Of a stretch of 6,919 nucleotides of DNA, positions 1,003-6,919 are shown piece after piece. Numbering within the stretch: position 1 is the stretch's first letter; each line of letters starts with the position of its first letter. The stretch covers positions 1 through 6,919 of the forward strand of contig JAFGIT010000362.1 in the NCBI GenBank assembly GCA_016929465.1. The letters are read 5' to 3'. Below the pieces are notes generated by a model that was given only the letters and a program-made list of their open reading frames with translations, did not search any database and was not told the DNA's origin. The DNA is from JAFGIT01 sp016929465 [NCBI: Candidatus Coatesbacteria bacterium] (GTDB lineage Bacteria > B130-G9). Both the position numbers and the translations under genes were made by a program.

Positions 1003-2928
1003 CTATATTTCCAGGAAATCGAACCGGCCCGGTTCACTGGGCTCGAAGTCGGAGACCGCGAAGAGCCAGGCGTAGGCGCCGTCGAATGCGCCAATGAACT
1101 CACCAGAGGCATCTATCGAAAGAGACCTGTGTCCGCCCCTCAAATCTGCTCTCCAGAGTAGCGTTCCCCCGAGGCTGGCGCAGATGAGAGACCTGCCTTC
1201 CCTGAAGACCTCGATGAATTCTCTATTCTGGTTTCTCGCCACAGTTGAGTGCCTATCGGCGAGCTCCTTTCTCCAGGTGATGCGGCCGTCCTGCCCGATC
1301 AGGATCGCCTCATCGCGAGTGGTCCTGCAGAATAGGCCGTCTTCGAACGGGCGCAGTCTTGTGATAGGCGAGCCCAAATCTGCCGCCCAGATTCGCTCAC
1401 CCAACAGGTCGAATGCCGAGACAACTCCCCGAGTGTCTCCTACAAAGAGGGACTCATCGTCAAGCGCGAGCCGACTTCCCCCCGATGTGAATTCGACCGA
1501 AAAGACTCCTCTGCCCTTGAAGTCAACCAGAACTGCCCGGTTCCCTTCTGCGACAACCATGTCCTCACCAGAGGGCGAGATCAAGAAATAACGGGCATCG
1601 GCGGAGTCCATCCAGGTTCTCATGATCTGCCCGTCCGCATCAAAAACGCATATATTGCCGCCCATATCCATCGTTGCGAAGCGGTTCCCAATGGCATTGA
1701 CAGCAAGCATCGCAGTCCCCACACGTCTGCGCCAGAGGAGCTGGTCGTGGGCAAACGCATTCAGATATCCCTCGGTCGTGGCCGCAAAGGAGTACGACCG
1801 CGATGCGAGACACAGCGAAAAGACAGTCCCACCCAGGTTTGCTATCTCATTCGAGCGCCCCTTCTCGTCGAACGAGATGATGCGCCCATCAGTGGTTGCA
1901 CAGATTGAATGTTTGCCTCCGGGAAGCACGCGAATCTGAGCGGTTTGGCGGCTACTGGGCCTGCTGAAGAGCTTCGCTGAGAATAGGGGCTTCTTCTCTG
2001 AATGGCTCCCTTTACCCGACGAGTGCTCAAGGAAGGTGAAACGAGAGCTGTCGCCCGAAGTGATCTCATAGCCATACACGACCCCCAATCGGTCGGCGAC
2101 AATGAGATATTGGCTGTTGGCGTCGATGGCCCATGACTTGGGCCGGAATGGGAGATCAAAACTCGCGACTGCATCGCCGGCCTGATTGACAAAAGAAAGC
2201 CCCCCATTAATCGTCCCAAGTGCGATCATGGCGCATTCAGGCACGCACACAGCAAAGCTTATCGGCTGCTTGGATTTGAATGCGCGCGCATCAAGCCCCT
2301 CCCTGTCGAACAAGAATGCACCCATGCCAAACGCCGGCAGCGTAATCCACCTGCAGCACGGACTAAAATGAGGGAGCCCGCTCATGGTGTTGAGTTTTCT
2401 AACCCACAGCTGGTCGAATTCGCCATCCAATAGTGCAATCGCGGCGTTGGAGTTTCCGAGCAGCGCCAGGTCCTCTTCTGCGGATAAATCAATGGACTCT
2501 ATCGACAACGGGATTTGCATTGTTCTCACTAGCTCACCTCCTCGGTCAAGGATCGAGATGCACCGGGAATCGCCTCCTACGAGAATCGCCCCATCAGAAA
2601 GCCTCATGTCGGAGGCGTTGATGACATGCGGATAGCGAGTCGTCCAGACCGTCGTTCCCGACAAATCGAGAAGGGCGATTGTGCGGTCCGCTAAGGAGAC
2701 GAAAATGTTCGAACCATCGCGGGATAGCCGGAAGGACCTGATCGCCTCGTCAAATCTCTTCGAGAAAATCAGCTCGCCGCTGGGAGAGAGTCCGCATAGG
2801 TTGTTCTCACCGTCACTTAATGCTGAGTGACCCGTTACGGCGACGCTGGCCTCGACAAATGCCTGTGCGGAGGAATAAATCCATCTCTCCTGAAGGGCAA
2901 AAGACGGCCCGTCATAGGATACATCCAT
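1003..2928 (-). CDS. Double WD40/PQQ-like beta-propeller protein, probably cytoplasmic
   Basis: I do not recognise a named gene. From the ATG at 2928 the protein has 641 residues and is built almost wholly of propeller blades. Short blade ends recur about every 40 residues in the form D-x-x-G-x-x-x-W (DLSGTTVWTTRY, DLLGERIWAADLG, GQDGRITWRKELA, SLGGTLLWRADLRG). There appear to be two propellers: residues about 10-300 and 330-641, joined by a Ser/Lys-rich linker near 303-330. Both halves end in a similar motif, RFTFLEH (296-302) and RFDFLEI (635-641). There is no signal peptide or membrane segment, so it is probably cytoplasmic, acting as a binding or scaffold protein. The start is uncertain. 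The frame stays open to TTG at 2985, and TTG at 2970 has an AGAGG six bases upstream, but the extra N-terminus is Arg-rich low complexity, so I prefer the ATG. The gene follows the pseudo-subtilisin gene on the same strand. Substrate and pathway are unknown. Confidence 0.85.
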   Translation of the reverse strand: MDVSYDGPSFALQERWIYSSAQAFVEASVAVTGHSALSDGENNLCGLSPSGELIFSKRFDEAIRSFRLSRDGSNIFVSLADRTIALLDLSGTTVWTTRYPHVINASDMRLSDGAILVGGDSRCISILDRGGELVRTMQIPLSIESIDLSAEEDLALLGNSNAAIALLDGEFDQLWVRKLNTMSGLPHFSPCCRWITLPAFGMGAFLFDREGLDARAFKSKQPISFAVCVPECAMIALGTINGGLSFVNQAGDAVASFDLPFRPKSWAIDANSQYLIVADRLGVVYGYEITSGDSSRFTFLEHSSGKGSHSEKKPLFSAKLFSRPSSRQTAQIRVLPGGKHSICATTDGRIISFDEKGRSNEIANLGGTVFSLCLASRSYSFAATTEGYLNAFAHDQLLWRRRVGTAMLAVNAIGNRFATMDMGGNICVFDADGQIMRTWMDSADARYFLISPSGEDMVVAEGNRAVLVDFKGRGVFSVEFTSGGSRLALDDESLFVGDTRGVVSAFDLLGERIWAADLGSPITRLRPFEDGLFCRTTRDEAILIGQDGRITWRKELADRHSTVARNQNREFIEVFREGRSLICASLGGTLLWRADLRGGHRSLSIDASGEFIGAFDGAYAWLFAVSDFEPSEPGRFDFLEI

Positions 2929-2998
2929 GTCGGGGACAAGGCTTTCCTCTCTTCCTCTGGCTCTCCTCAAGAGAGACCTCTGCAAAGAAAAGACTGAA

Positions 2999-3122: not shown

Positions 3123-5948
3123 CTAATGAATTGTGAGATAGGGCCAAGTATCGCTTCGCTGACCTGAGTTGTCAAAGGCAACAATCTCTAGGATCAATTG
3201 TCCAGCGGCGATTCCGCCAACTCCGGTGTAGAGAGTGAATGTGCCGTCATTCGGGAATTTATCGCCCTGAGTGCCATCGTCCTTGAGATACGCTTCCAAT
3301 GGAGATTGGCCCTCGAGGAACAGCTCAACGCGATCGATGTCGCCCCACGTTATCCCACTCGAGTCCCTGACCACGGCGGTTATGTTCACAACTCCCCCCT
3401 GCGTCGAAGCGGATGAGCCATAGAGCCCAGCGCTCAGGATCGATGGAGTACCATCTGCGGCGTATCCGGATGTCAGCGAGCCGGTCTTGCCTTTGCTCGC
3501 CTTGTCTGCCGATGGAGAAAGGCTGTCCTTGACCGTGAGATATGGCCACATATCGCTCGTCTTTCCGGATGAGTCCGTCGCGGCGATCCCTACGAGATAT
3601 TGGCCGGATGCGAACATCCCTGGGAAAATGAAGATGGAGTAAGTATATATGCCATCTCCGGCAATGGAGTCACCTTCCAGCCCGTCATCTCTCATTAAGA
3701 GACCAGTTGGCGCGCCTTCGAAATAGAGCTCAACCTTGGAGATGTCGGTCCTCGCATCGGGCGTAGAGACCTTTGCGGTGATGATGAGATTGCCGCCGTC
3801 GGCCTGTGAGATGTAGCTGTCGCCGAAAGACGCCTCCTCGATCACTGGCGGCAGATCATTTGATTCACCGACGAGGGCGGCATATATGTCAATGAGTCCG
3901 GAGCCGGTCCGATTCGCATCCCCAAGGGATCTCGCCCCGCCCTTCAACCGGCTGATAACCTCAGCGTATGGAGCGGTGGGCATATAGGAACGGATCAAAG
4001 CGCAGGCACCGGCTGCAAATCCAGCAGAGCAGGCGGTACCGTGAACATAATCATAGCCAAGAGCATATCCGTTTGCCGAATAAGAGCTGGCGTAAGTGGG
4101 CAGCGTAGTGTAAATACCGTTTTCGTCTCCAGGGCCCCCCGAGCCTCCAGGCGCGACAACGTCAACCTTGCGACCATCTGCACTACCGCCTGAACTCGAA
4201 TAGGAGGTTACCTGGCCATTCCTGCCGGTCGCTCCAACTGCCAAGACACCTTCATAGCTCGCCGGATAGCCCGAGACACCAGCTGTATCGCCTGTACCGG
4301 AGATGACCAAGATGTCATGCTCCTTCGCGTAGTTCACGGCGTCTTCCAGCTGAGCAGATTTTTCGTCGAAGCCGACCGGAATCACCGCGATTTTGGCGCC
4401 CATATCGACGGCGTATCTGACCGCCTTCCAGAGAGCCTGCCGTGAGCCATCGAACTTAAGGGCCATAATCGAGGCGCCCCACGACACACCTGCCACGTTC
4501 TTCGGACAGCAATCTTGATCATGGAAGCTGGAGTTGTCATTGTTCGCGATTGCAGCGATTATTCCGGCGACTGCGGTGCCGGTCCCCTGCTCATCGAAGA
4601 TGCCGTTGCTGCCGATTCCGTCCCGCGTGAACGACCATCCGAAGACATCATCTGTGAGGCCATTGCCGTCGTTGTCAATTCCGTCGGCATCCAATTCCCC
4701 CTGATTCCGCCAGAGGCTCTCACGCAGGTCCGGATGATTTGGATCGACGCCCGTGCTGATCAATGCTACGACAACATCAGTGCTATCTCCGCGCTCGATG
4801 TACCAGGCAGTAGGAGCATTGATGTCTGCGGTACGAGAAGGTTCATAGAGAGCCCATTGCTTGTCAAAACTGCTATCGCATGGAGTTATCATCCCACCGG
4901 CCGGAGCGAGGTCACACTCGAGGATGTTCATGCTGCCATCTGTGACCGAGAAGCTGTCAAAGGTGTGGTCCTGGTACCCAGATTTACTCACAGTCAATGT
5001 AACGTTTTCCGAGGAGTTCACGGCTCTGAAACATACTCTGCCAAGATGATCGGATTCCAGGAATTCCTGATCAGTGCCGGAGTTGACGACGACCGTCGCT
5101 CGCGGCAGCGGGCATCCCTCTGCATTCTCGGAACCATTGTTGATTTGAACAGCAACTGTTCCTGTATTCCCGGCTCGTCCTACGTCGATTCTCGCCACGG
5201 TCATCGCATTGTAATCAACTGTCCAGAGGTACAGACCGTCAAAAGCCATGTCATAGAGCGTTCTTCCACCAGTGGTGAACCAGGAATCGATGCCGCCGTC
5301 ATCTCTCCGAGTGAACATGATGCTTTCGCCTTCTTTGCACGTCGCAGAGATGAATAGGCTCTTGCCGTCCGCCGCCAGACCGAATCCCTGAATCAACTCA
5401 TAGCCGCCTACGCTCGCTGGGATATCAGCCCTCCCGACCTCTGTTCCCTGCCGGCTGTACCAGATGAGAGTCCCGCCGCCCGAAGCTGACTTCAGACAGG
5501 CCAGATTCTCACCATCATAGGCGAGACCTATCATCCGTCCATCAACGGTGAAGGAAGAGACCAAATCTCCGTTCAGGGGATTGATGCACAGCAGTCTGGG
5601 AACGGATCCTGAATCCAGGACCCAGACATTCTCACCATCCCACGCACAGCCTCTCGGCTGAACTTCATCAATGGAATTCACGATGTAATCAATAACGAAT
5701 GATTCCCTGGATGTGCCTCCCACCGTATCGAGGACGTAGAGCATGGGCGTCACCAATTGCCCTAATACCACCACTCCGGAGCAGTAAAGAAGCCCATCCT
5801 CATCGACGGCCAAGCCTCTTGGGCTCAACTCCTGAGGTGCATCGAATTCGTAGCCGATATAACCGGTCTCCGCCGCGGCGTGGCCGATACCCAAAGTGGA
5901 GATGGCTAGATAGCCAAGAAACGCCAGTGATGAGATTGCCCTTTGCAT
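3123..5948 (-). CDS. Exported subtilisin-fold (S8) pseudoprotease with propeller and tandem C-terminal beta-sandwich modules
   Basis: The protein has 941 residues from the ATG at 5948. The frame is open further to TTG 6086, but this ATG starts a clear signal peptide (MQRAISSLAFLGYLAISTLG, with likely cleavage after HAAA near 26) and has AAGGGG ten bases upstream. Domains in order: propeller of NHL/SMP-30 type (about 28-256), carboxypeptidase-regulatory-like sandwich (258-350), S8 fold (358-695), and two related sandwich modules (700-807 and 834-941). S8 landmarks are plain: KQWALYEP, INAPTAWYI, TGVDPNHPDL, DNDGNGLTDDVFGW, VAGIIAA, YPASYEGVLAVGA, VDVVAPGG and YVHGT. However, the catalytic positions are changed: Asp to Ser398, His to Thr456, Ser to Ala639, and oxyanion Asn to Asp554. 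The substrate strand reads IPVGF instead of the usual SxGG. Proteolysis is therefore not expected. It is secreted or surface-exposed, possibly as an adhesive or binding protein. No C-terminal sorting signal is visible. About a dozen Cys residues suggest disulfides. Confidence 0.92.
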   Translation of the reverse strand: MQRAISSLAFLGYLAISTLGIGHAAAETGYIGYEFDAPQELSPRGLAVDEDGLLYCSGVVVLGQLVTPMLYVLDTVGGTSRESFVIDYIVNSIDEVQPRGCAWDGENVWVLDSGSVPRLLCINPLNGDLVSSFTVDGRMIGLAYDGENLACLKSASGGGTLIWYSRQGTEVGRADIPASVGGYELIQGFGLAADGKSLFISATCKEGESIMFTRRDDGGIDSWFTTGGRTLYDMAFDGLYLWTVDYNAMTVARIDVGRAGNTGTVAVQINNGSENAEGCPLPRATVVVNSGTDQEFLESDHLGRVCFRAVNSSENVTLTVSKSGYQDHTFDSFSVTDGSMNILECDLAPAGGMITPCDSSFDKQWALYEPSRTADINAPTAWYIERGDSTDVVVALISTGVDPNHPDLRESLWRNQGELDADGIDNDGNGLTDDVFGWSFTRDGIGSNGIFDEQGTGTAVAGIIAAIANNDNSSFHDQDCCPKNVAGVSWGASIMALKFDGSRQALWKAVRYAVDMGAKIAVIPVGFDEKSAQLEDAVNYAKEHDILVISGTGDTAGVSGYPASYEGVLAVGATGRNGQVTSYSSSGGSADGRKVDVVAPGGSGGPGDENGIYTTLPTYASSYSANGYALGYDYVHGTACSAGFAAGACALIRSYMPTAPYAEVISRLKGGARSLGDANRTGSGLIDIYAALVGESNDLPPVIEEASFGDSYISQADGGNLIITAKVSTPDARTDISKVELYFEGAPTGLLMRDDGLEGDSIAGDGIYTYSIFIFPGMFASGQYLVGIAATDSSGKTSDMWPYLTVKDSLSPSADKASKGKTGSLTSGYAADGTPSILSAGLYGSSASTQGGVVNITAVVRDSSGITWGDIDRVELFLEGQSPLEAYLKDDGTQGDKFPNDGTFTLYTGVGGIAAGQLILEIVAFDNSGQRSDTWPYLTIH
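3126..3449 (-). repeat. C-terminal beta-sandwich module, copy 2
   Basis: Residues 834-941 of the pseudo-subtilisin. It shares landmarks in the same order and spacing with copy 1: a start of the PSILSAGLYG type, VELFLEG, the acidic loop DDGTQGDKFPNDGTFT, and the ending WPYLTIH. The acidic DDGxxGDxxxxDGxxT loop looks suited to calcium binding and is seen in extracellular beta-sandwich repeats. The copy ends the protein. Confidence 0.8.
3528..3851 (-). repeat. C-terminal beta-sandwich module, copy 1
   Basis: Residues 700-807 of the pseudo-subtilisin, directly after the S8 fold. Landmarks are PVIEEASFGD, VELYFEG, DDGLEGDSIAGDGIYT, AATDSSGKTSD and WPYLTV. A linker of about 26 residues rich in Ser, Lys and Gly separates it from copy 2. 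The similarity is at protein level with clear divergence, so the duplication is not recent. Confidence 0.8.
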
Positions 5949-5964: not shown

Positions 5965-6125
5965 GTTTTTGGTAGCTTTCTTGATTTCTGAAACAACTGG
6001 ACAGTGCTCGAAGTTCCCGCCTCAGAGCATGTTCGTGGCCCATTGACGGCGCACAATAACGGGCGGGGATCAGTTCCAAAGAGCAAGAAATCGCTGGATG
6101 CCGATACTTGCGTTCCGCAGCCTCG

Positions 6126-6919
6126 TCATAGATAGCGAGGGCGCAGCAACATCTTGGCTATCCTGGGCAGAGCCCTGGGGCCAAATTTCTTACTCATTTC
6201 GAGAAGAGGCGCCGGTCTAAGCCAGAATTTCCTCATCGCACCGAGGATGTCAGATACTACGACGTCGCCCCTGTCCATGCTGCCCATTCTCTTGACCTCT
6301 CCTTCCCCGAATCTTCTCCGCTTGAGAAGGTCAATCGACCTGGACCCCGATGTCATTCGCGCATCGAGGAATTCGATGGCATTCGCTCCGCTCTTTCTGG
6401 CGAATTTCACTGCGGAGACCATATCCTCATCATCCGGGAAGAGACCAGCAACGAAGCATAGACAGGTGAAGATGCCAGCAGCATGAAGCAGCCTGATCGC
6501 TCGTGATCGACAGTCCGCATCACGGTCCGGCCCATAGCCGAATTCAGAGGCCGCCCTCTCTGCATTCAGAGGTAGAACAAGGAAGACCATGTCGCACCCG
6601 GCTGTCTTCAGCTTCTGGATCGTCTGTTCAGAGAACGTGCAATCGCATGAGCGAAAACTGAAGGAGGCCGTCTTCAATCCAGCTCTGGCCATCTCCTCGA
6701 CGAGCTCCTCCCACCACAGGTCCGGAGGAGTGAGATTATCCGCAATGAGCTCGAAACGCCGCTCGCCCAAATCGAGCAGAGCTGACCTCATTTCCTTTAC
6801 TAGCGCAAAGGGCCTACGCAGATGTGTGACTCCGCCTGATATCTTTGGGACCAGGCAGTGCAGACAGTTATGTTTGCAGCCGGTGGATGCAAGCACCGGC
6901 AATCGCAGTTGGCCATCTA
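6126..6919 (-). CDS. Radical SAM protein, B12-binding-type subfamily, N-terminal part outside window
   Basis: The frame is open to the right edge, so the N-terminus is missing; 263 residues are visible. The radical SAM cluster motif CxxxCxxC is at visible residues 14-21 (GCKHNCLHC), which ligates the 4Fe-4S cluster that cleaves S-adenosylmethionine. Downstream landmarks match proteins with an upstream cobalamin-binding domain (BchE-like group): LIADNLTPPDLWWEELVEEM in place of the usual FxDDNFT strand-helix, KLKTAGCDMVFLVLPLN in place of the usual GIESG strand, then FVAGLFPDDEDM (the usual GLPGET turn), and a basic C-terminus with the RKFWLRP type of ending. The cobalamin domain itself would lie outside the window and is inferred. 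The substrate cannot be read from sequence; this group includes methyltransferases and cyclases. It lies 177 bases upstream of the pseudo-subtilisin gene on the same strand, with no evident functional link. Confidence 0.87.
   Translation of the reverse strand, partial: DGQLRLPVLASTGCKHNCLHCLVPKISGGVTHLRRPFALVKEMRSALLDLGERRFELIADNLTPPDLWWEELVEEMARAGLKTASFSFRSCDCTFSEQTIQKLKTAGCDMVFLVLPLNAERAASEFGYGPDRDADCRSRAIRLLHAAGIFTCLCFVAGLFPDDEDMVSAVKFARKSGANAIEFLDARMTSGSRSIDLLKRRRFGEGEVKRMGSMDRGDVVVSDILGAMRKFWLRPAPLLEMSKKFGPRALPRIAKMLLRPRYL

Follow-up and report, generated by a model that had tools for sequence, protein, structure and literature searches.

The window analysed here, a stretch of 6,919 nt taken whole (positions 1 to 6,919 of contig JAFGIT010000362.1 from a Candidatus Coatesbacteria bacterium), carries a gene for a 941-residue protein whose subtilisin-like domain, of peptidase family S8, has lost the entire Asp-His-Ser catalytic triad together with the Asn of the oxyanion hole. 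Residues of this pseudo-S8 protein are numbered from the ATG at position 5948. The evidence supports a catalytic loss that is old and has been maintained by selection, because the replacements are common to all orthologues, the domain evolves with a ratio of nonsynonymous to synonymous substitution rates (dN/dS) of about 0.1, its fold is intact in the structure model, and every outside relative compared keeps the triad. We give a probability of roughly 0.65 to the reading that the gene encodes a surface-displayed protein, composed of a beta-propeller, the pseudo-S8 domain and immunoglobulin-like (Ig-like) repeats, with a non-catalytic binding or scaffold role.

Catalytic sites and fold of the S8 domain

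The domain reaches 112.5 bits with PF00082 (Peptidase_S8), over the cut-off of 21.8, and among PDB sequences its best relative is deseasin MCP-01 (E 9.3e-24). The NCBIfam model for type VII mycosins, TIGR03921, gives 127.2 bits, which is under its cut-off of 278.75. Ser398, Thr456 and Ala639 occupy the positions of the catalytic Asp, His and Ser, and Asp554 that of the oxyanion Asn. The replacement of all four sites was the central claim of an earlier reading of the window (the original prediction), and a script recovered identical codons and positions for each of them. Three MAFFT alignments agree on the placement of the replaced positions, and in phmmer the four residues stand opposite the catalytic positions of deseasin, and of savinase where the alignment reaches. 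A place among the sedolisins (S53), for which an excerpt of PMC9549277 gives the triad as Glu-Asp-Ser, is contradicted by Ala639 at the position where a catalytic Ser is needed. Descent and fold, but not mechanism, place the window protein in the S8 family.

The original prediction had also raised the case of a different Asp, His and Ser taking over the role of the triad, and none came to light at the level of sequence. A replacement Cys nucleophile at residue 640 is ruled out by Tyr at that position in one orthologue (genome G002), and any other standard-type triad was ruled out from the invariant columns, by sequence only. The S8 domain has no invariant His or Cys beyond His405, His544, His636 and Cys649, and with so few a classical triad elsewhere in the domain is unlikely.

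An AlphaFold model of the domain built with 31 sequences reached a predicted local distance difference test score (pLDDT) of 85 and a predicted template modelling score (pTM) of 0.86. Among the matches listed by VIA-align, it superposes on deseasin (3vv3) with Z 44.9 and 1.7 Å over 304 residues, and on thermitase with Z 42.2 and 1.2 Å over 271 residues. Judged by this model, the subtilisin fold of the domain is intact, and the earlier statement that the scaffold is well retained agrees with the profile score as well as with the structural matches.

Distribution, relatives and selection

The window genome (G000) is a metagenome-assembled genome (MAG) of 3.19 Mb in 423 contigs, and our sample of the phylum consists of this and three further genomes (G001, G002 and G003), which together span one family and three genera. 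A profile of the pseudo-S8 domains, run against 386 genomes with scoring limited to five candidates per genome, found the orthologue in all four genomes of the phylum and in none of the 382 others. Orthologues scored 664-711 bits, with 175.5 bits for a second piece in G003, as against 159.5 bits for the next best match, and the group is therefore confined to the phylum among the genomes searched. The orthologues match the window protein at 66% in G001, 64-68% in G003 and 55-56% in G002, the latter two being divided over two contigs each. The two G003 contigs overlap (end of L044, start of L045) with two residues different, which suggests a strain mixture in that MAG.

Across the four orthologues the sites read S/S/S/S at the catalytic Asp, T/V/L/L at the His, D/D/D/D at the oxyanion Asn and A/A/A/A at the nucleophile. 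No orthologue has the triad, and the combination of a triad-bearing homologue with relaxed selection on the window copy, which the original prediction had set against itself, was not encountered. Outside the group, Asp, His and Ser are kept in 45 of 45 distinct relatives and Asn in 44, the remaining one (L021) having Ala; these relatives are the best-scoring loci (26 + 26, 7 shared) and not a random sample, and some come from the same genome family. Among them, L095 and L102 keep all sites. In the S8 gene L102, which has the complete triad, one in-frame TGA could be a stop, a recoding event or an error.

The four genomes hold 34 S8 matches, five of which belong to the pseudo group (one of them a contig-end piece). 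Twenty-three of the others were aligned, three were read separately (both C33 pieces and the second C130 piece) and three were left unread (two from C87, one from C48). In the 23 aligned and in the split C130 and C33 genes, Asp, His, Asn and Ser are kept wherever covered; C130 was aligned in its last part only, with His, Asn and Ser seen and Asp outside the locus, and the alignment rows of C78 and C63 stop short of Ser. Two further features of these S8 genes were observed. In a separate clade (L005, L006, L007, L008, L061 and L067, from G000 and G002) HGV takes the place of HGT at the catalytic His, the residue that follows the catalytic Asp is Cys, Ser or Gly, and the covered parts retain the triad; its four G000 genes lie in two pairs, one on contig C9 and the other on C378. 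In L063/L065 (G002, C33) and L069 (G000, C130) more than 100 inserted residues separate an intact SAGN from the S8 segment that comes next.

In the tree, the orthologues make up a single clade supported at 100/100, whose stem measures 1.16 changes per column and whose internal branches measure 0.023-0.34. A long stem with short inner branches is compatible with rapid change when catalysis was lost and little change thereafter. Values of dN/dS between genera were set aside, as dS there is close to saturation or past it. For the pair G001-G003, where dS is about 0.5, the pseudo-S8 domain has a dN/dS of 0.096 (bootstrap 0.058-0.147), two catalytic S8 domains have 0.087 (0.048-0.141) and 0.070 (0.045-0.100), and the propeller part of the pseudo-S8 protein has 0.110; the neighbouring genes have 0.188 (radical SAM protein), 0.198 (PQQ propeller) and 0.183 (FapA). 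Invariance across the four orthologues is highest in the S8 domain (177/336), with 106/244 in the propeller, 19/74 in the regulatory-like domain and 45/104 and 49/105 in the two Ig-like repeats. The proposal that selection favours a non-catalytic role gains support from these values, together with the common substitutions, the fold and the intact triads of the outside relatives.

Apparent remodelling of the substrate-binding cleft

Twenty columns are invariant in 26 of the outside S8 relatives. In the orthologues 15 of these keep their residue, the Ala381 column holds Ala or Gly, and the remaining four are altered throughout, namely the three triad positions and the equivalent of subtilisin Ser125, where Pro524 stands; the probability of finding all three triad columns among four drawn at random from 20 is 0.0035. 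The segment from the MxLK motif to the YA motif, which we take to contain in subtilisin the strand that pairs with the substrate, has 19 residues in 4/4 orthologues and 24 in 25 of the 44 relatives measured (range 14-33; L095 excluded). Clade-specific residues make up 46 of the 185 orthologue-invariant columns examined, and Asp554 and His636, three residues ahead of the nucleophile position, are among them. The substrate-binding edge thus appears from the alignments to be altered in part along with catalysis.

Proposed role and alternatives

We propose that an ancestral S8 protease domain, flanked by a beta-propeller on its N-terminal side and by a double Ig-like module on its C-terminal side, had already been stripped of the triad, the oxyanion Asn and some of the substrate-binding edge when the phylum's three known genera diverged, and that purifying selection since then would have kept it as a rigid non-catalytic platform. 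The protein would be exported by Sec and attached to the cell surface through its C-terminal module, in the same way as the C25 (gingipain-family) and transglutaminase-like proteins of the genome that share this module. The remodelled cleft and the propeller would then bind a protein or glycan partner, as a scaffold or receptor, with no cutting. Of the roles that had been suggested at the outset, binding and adhesion remain plausible, and that of a decoy is weakened by the replaced and shortened substrate-binding positions.

Several points weigh against this reading. The sample comprises four genomes only, dS between genera is near or past saturation, the bootstrap of the tree had not settled, and the His position is unfixed among the orthologues. 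The propeller and Ig-like parts are supported by weak profile matches and a poor full-length model, and the domain order of the parts other than S8 is shown more weakly than the fold, the losses, the conservation, the selection and the neighbourhood. In windows of 13 residues around the replaced sites, seven are invariant at Asp554 and seven at Ala639, no more than in the S8 domain at large (53%), and eight at Ser398 and ten at Thr456, somewhat above that average. With two of the four surroundings at the domain average, a special role of the old cleft is therefore not clearly marked by conservation.

The alternative that survives best, though we consider it improbable, is that the protein controls an active protease much as CspC and CspA of Clostridioides difficile do (excerpts of PMC6636752 and PMC12880746 supply the precedent), in which case the dead domain would pair with a catalytic S8 or C25 protease at the same surface. 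Partners would be at hand, with 29 further S8 matches and at least 37 C25 matches in the same four genomes, and one C25 peptidase (L072) bears the same C-terminal module. However, there is no other S8 or C25 match on the contigs that bear the gene, several of which are short, the domain lies near no S8 paralogue in the tree, and it has no space for a Csp-like jelly roll of ~130 residues, given that the domain model (residues 9-350) aligns 304 residues to the 329-residue deseasin.

A substrate trap or decoy, in which the dead cleft binds, shields or sequesters protease substrates or inhibitors, seems to us a slimmer prospect. It would accord with the kept fold and with Gly526, the equivalent of Gly127, which is invariant. 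Yet the Pro at the Ser125 equivalent, the Phe527 that follows Gly526, and the edge segment of 19 residues as against 24 give the cleft a remodelled look, and the trap is less likely for that reason. The shortening taken alone is no proof of lost binding, since catalytic relatives exist with 20 residues (L021 and L037) or with 14 (L101, the only one shorter than the orthologues).

We regard it as very doubtful that the old cleft was rebuilt so that Ser398, Asp554 and His636 now bind a ligand or metal or even act in catalysis, and as hardly to be expected that these three make up another active centre or metal site. They are invariant in the orthologues that cover the sites and absent in 26/26 relatives, and His636 is the only clade-specific invariant His near the nucleophile position in sequence, but positions 32 and 218 are, on the known subtilisin layout, probably too far apart for a triad. 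A decaying pseudogene or sequencing artefact, which a single MAG contig with four key residues gone might bring to mind, is refuted by orthologues with intact frames in independent assemblies, by their common substitutions and by the low dN/dS, in line with the earlier judgment that error or recent decay was unlikely.

Gene layout and neighbourhood

The features of the window are collected in Table 1. The frame is open over 987 codons if the TTG at 6086 is used and over 941, the length first reported, if the ATG at 5948 is used; the latter gives a signal-peptide-like start and aligns with the starts of the orthologues. Inspected by eye, the N-terminus looks like a Sec signal peptide. The propeller was taken from the full-length AlphaFold model, in which the mean pLDDT is 49.4, the S8 part is unusable and the propeller part, the only one used, has block pLDDT of about 50-90; the NHL profile match of this region is under its cut-off. 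The choice-of-anchor X model NF041940 gives 41.8 bits (cut-off 25) over two stretches.

Table 1. Features of the window, with positions in the 6,919-nt stretch.
Feature	Position	Strand	Evidence
Upstream neighbour, B12-binding-like radical SAM protein, cut at window edge	6126..6917	-	PF04055 29.2 bits, just under the cut-off of 29.5
Pseudo-subtilase gene, 941 amino acids, putatively secreted	3123..5948	-	Open reading frame, profiles; ATG matches orthologue starts; stop codon 3123-3125
Signal-peptide-like N-terminus, residues 1-26	5871..5948	-	By eye; same layout in orthologues
Predicted beta-propeller, residues 27-270	5139..5870	-	Foldseek matches to NHL and glutaminyl-cyclase propellers, among the matches listed
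Putative carboxypeptidase regulatory-like domain, residues 276-341	4926..5123	-	PF13620 26.6 bits, under the cut-off of 32.3
S8 (subtilase) domain without catalytic residues	3954..4781	-	PF00082; AlphaFold model and structural match
Ser398 (AGC) at catalytic Asp position	4755..4757	-	Codon by script; alignments
Thr456 (ACC) at catalytic His position	4581..4583	-	Codon by script; Val/Leu/Leu in orthologues
Shortened substrate-binding edge segment, residues 495-513	4410..4466	-	Length comparison with catalytic relatives
Pro524 at subtilisin Ser125 position	4377..4379	-	Ser in 26/26 relatives; Pro in every orthologue that covers the site
Asp554 (GAT) at oxyanion Asn position	4287..4289	-	Codon by script; alignments
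His636, invariant and clade-specific	4041..4043	-	Column comparison
Ala639 (GCC) at nucleophile Ser position	4032..4034	-	Codon by script; alignments
Ig-like repeat 1 (choice-of-anchor X)	3549..3860	-	NF041940; other large proteins in the phylum have homologous C-termini
Ig-like repeat 2, terminating WPYLTIH	3126..3440	-	NF041940 and sequence reading
Downstream neighbour, 660-amino-acid PQQ/BamB-like propeller without evident signal peptide	1003..2985	-	PF13360; same position in G001, G003 and G002

The order of radical SAM gene, pseudo-S8 gene and propeller gene (654 or 660 amino acids) is kept in G000, G001, G003 and G002, across two contigs in the last two, and the gaps between the genes are similar in G000 and G001 (177/183 and 137/138 bases). 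A full-length relative of the radical SAM neighbour, of 469 amino acids, is present in G001. FapA lies convergent downstream in G000, G001 and G003, and the remaining neighbours were read by eye from lists of open reading frames. A sigma-70-like site (10 of 12) falls at 3147-3175 on the minus strand, in the end of the pseudo-S8 gene and ahead of the propeller gene, where about two such sites per region are expected by chance.

Paired Ig-like C-termini are found on other large proteins of the four genomes, with 13 loci read (L070-L082) and many more partial matches, and the carriers include the C25 peptidase L072 and the transglutaminase-like protein L070. The module, at 3126-3860 in the window, commonly ends in a PYLxV- or PYFxV-like stretch on large secreted-looking proteins. 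It may serve throughout the phylum as a tag for sorting or anchoring. Matches to C25 peptidases are abundant in the four genomes, with 5 to 16 per genome.

Relation to known pseudo-subtilases

Loss of catalysis as such is already known, since an excerpted 2008 survey judged 42 of 966 proteins from five serine protease families in 91 prokaryotic genomes to be inactive (PMC2605481). A close likeness is with CspC and CspA of C. difficile, bacterial S8 proteins without a working triad that have a non-catalytic role. According to an excerpt of PMC6636752, CspC has T170 in place of the catalytic His, as the window protein has Thr456, and G485, with D105 kept; it also has a prodomain and a jelly-roll insert and acts in spores. 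The window protein, in contrast, has lost all of Asp, His, Asn and Ser, lacks the jelly-roll insert and has the look of a secreted propeller and Ig-like protein. No prodomain family was found in it at E 0.001, and the propeller-like and regulatory-like regions precede its S8 domain. Among the literature matches listed, the Csp proteins were the only natural bacterial pseudo-subtilases to surface, though others may be in print.

PIMMS2 of Plasmodium is likewise a pseudoenzyme of subtilisin type and carries a signal peptide; in P. falciparum the orthologue is without Asp and His, and the GTS motif is missing in all orthologues, as far as an excerpt of PMC5520436 describes them. That protein is eukaryotic, has a transmembrane segment and varies at its triad positions, whereas in the window group three of the four replacements do not vary among the four orthologues.

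Deseasin MCP-01, the best PDB match by both sequence and fold among those listed, has a similar acidic DGIDNDGNG segment, presumably calcium-binding, and differs in that its triad is present. Pseudo-subtilases are thus already known in CspC/CspA and PIMMS2, and the window protein is a new and unusually complete case.

The finding carries a warning in that annotation based on profiles alone (PF00082) would label this protein a serine protease. Catalysis is gone while the constraint on the domain equals that on active paralogues in the same cells, which makes the protein a clean case for uses of the S8 fold that do not involve cutting.

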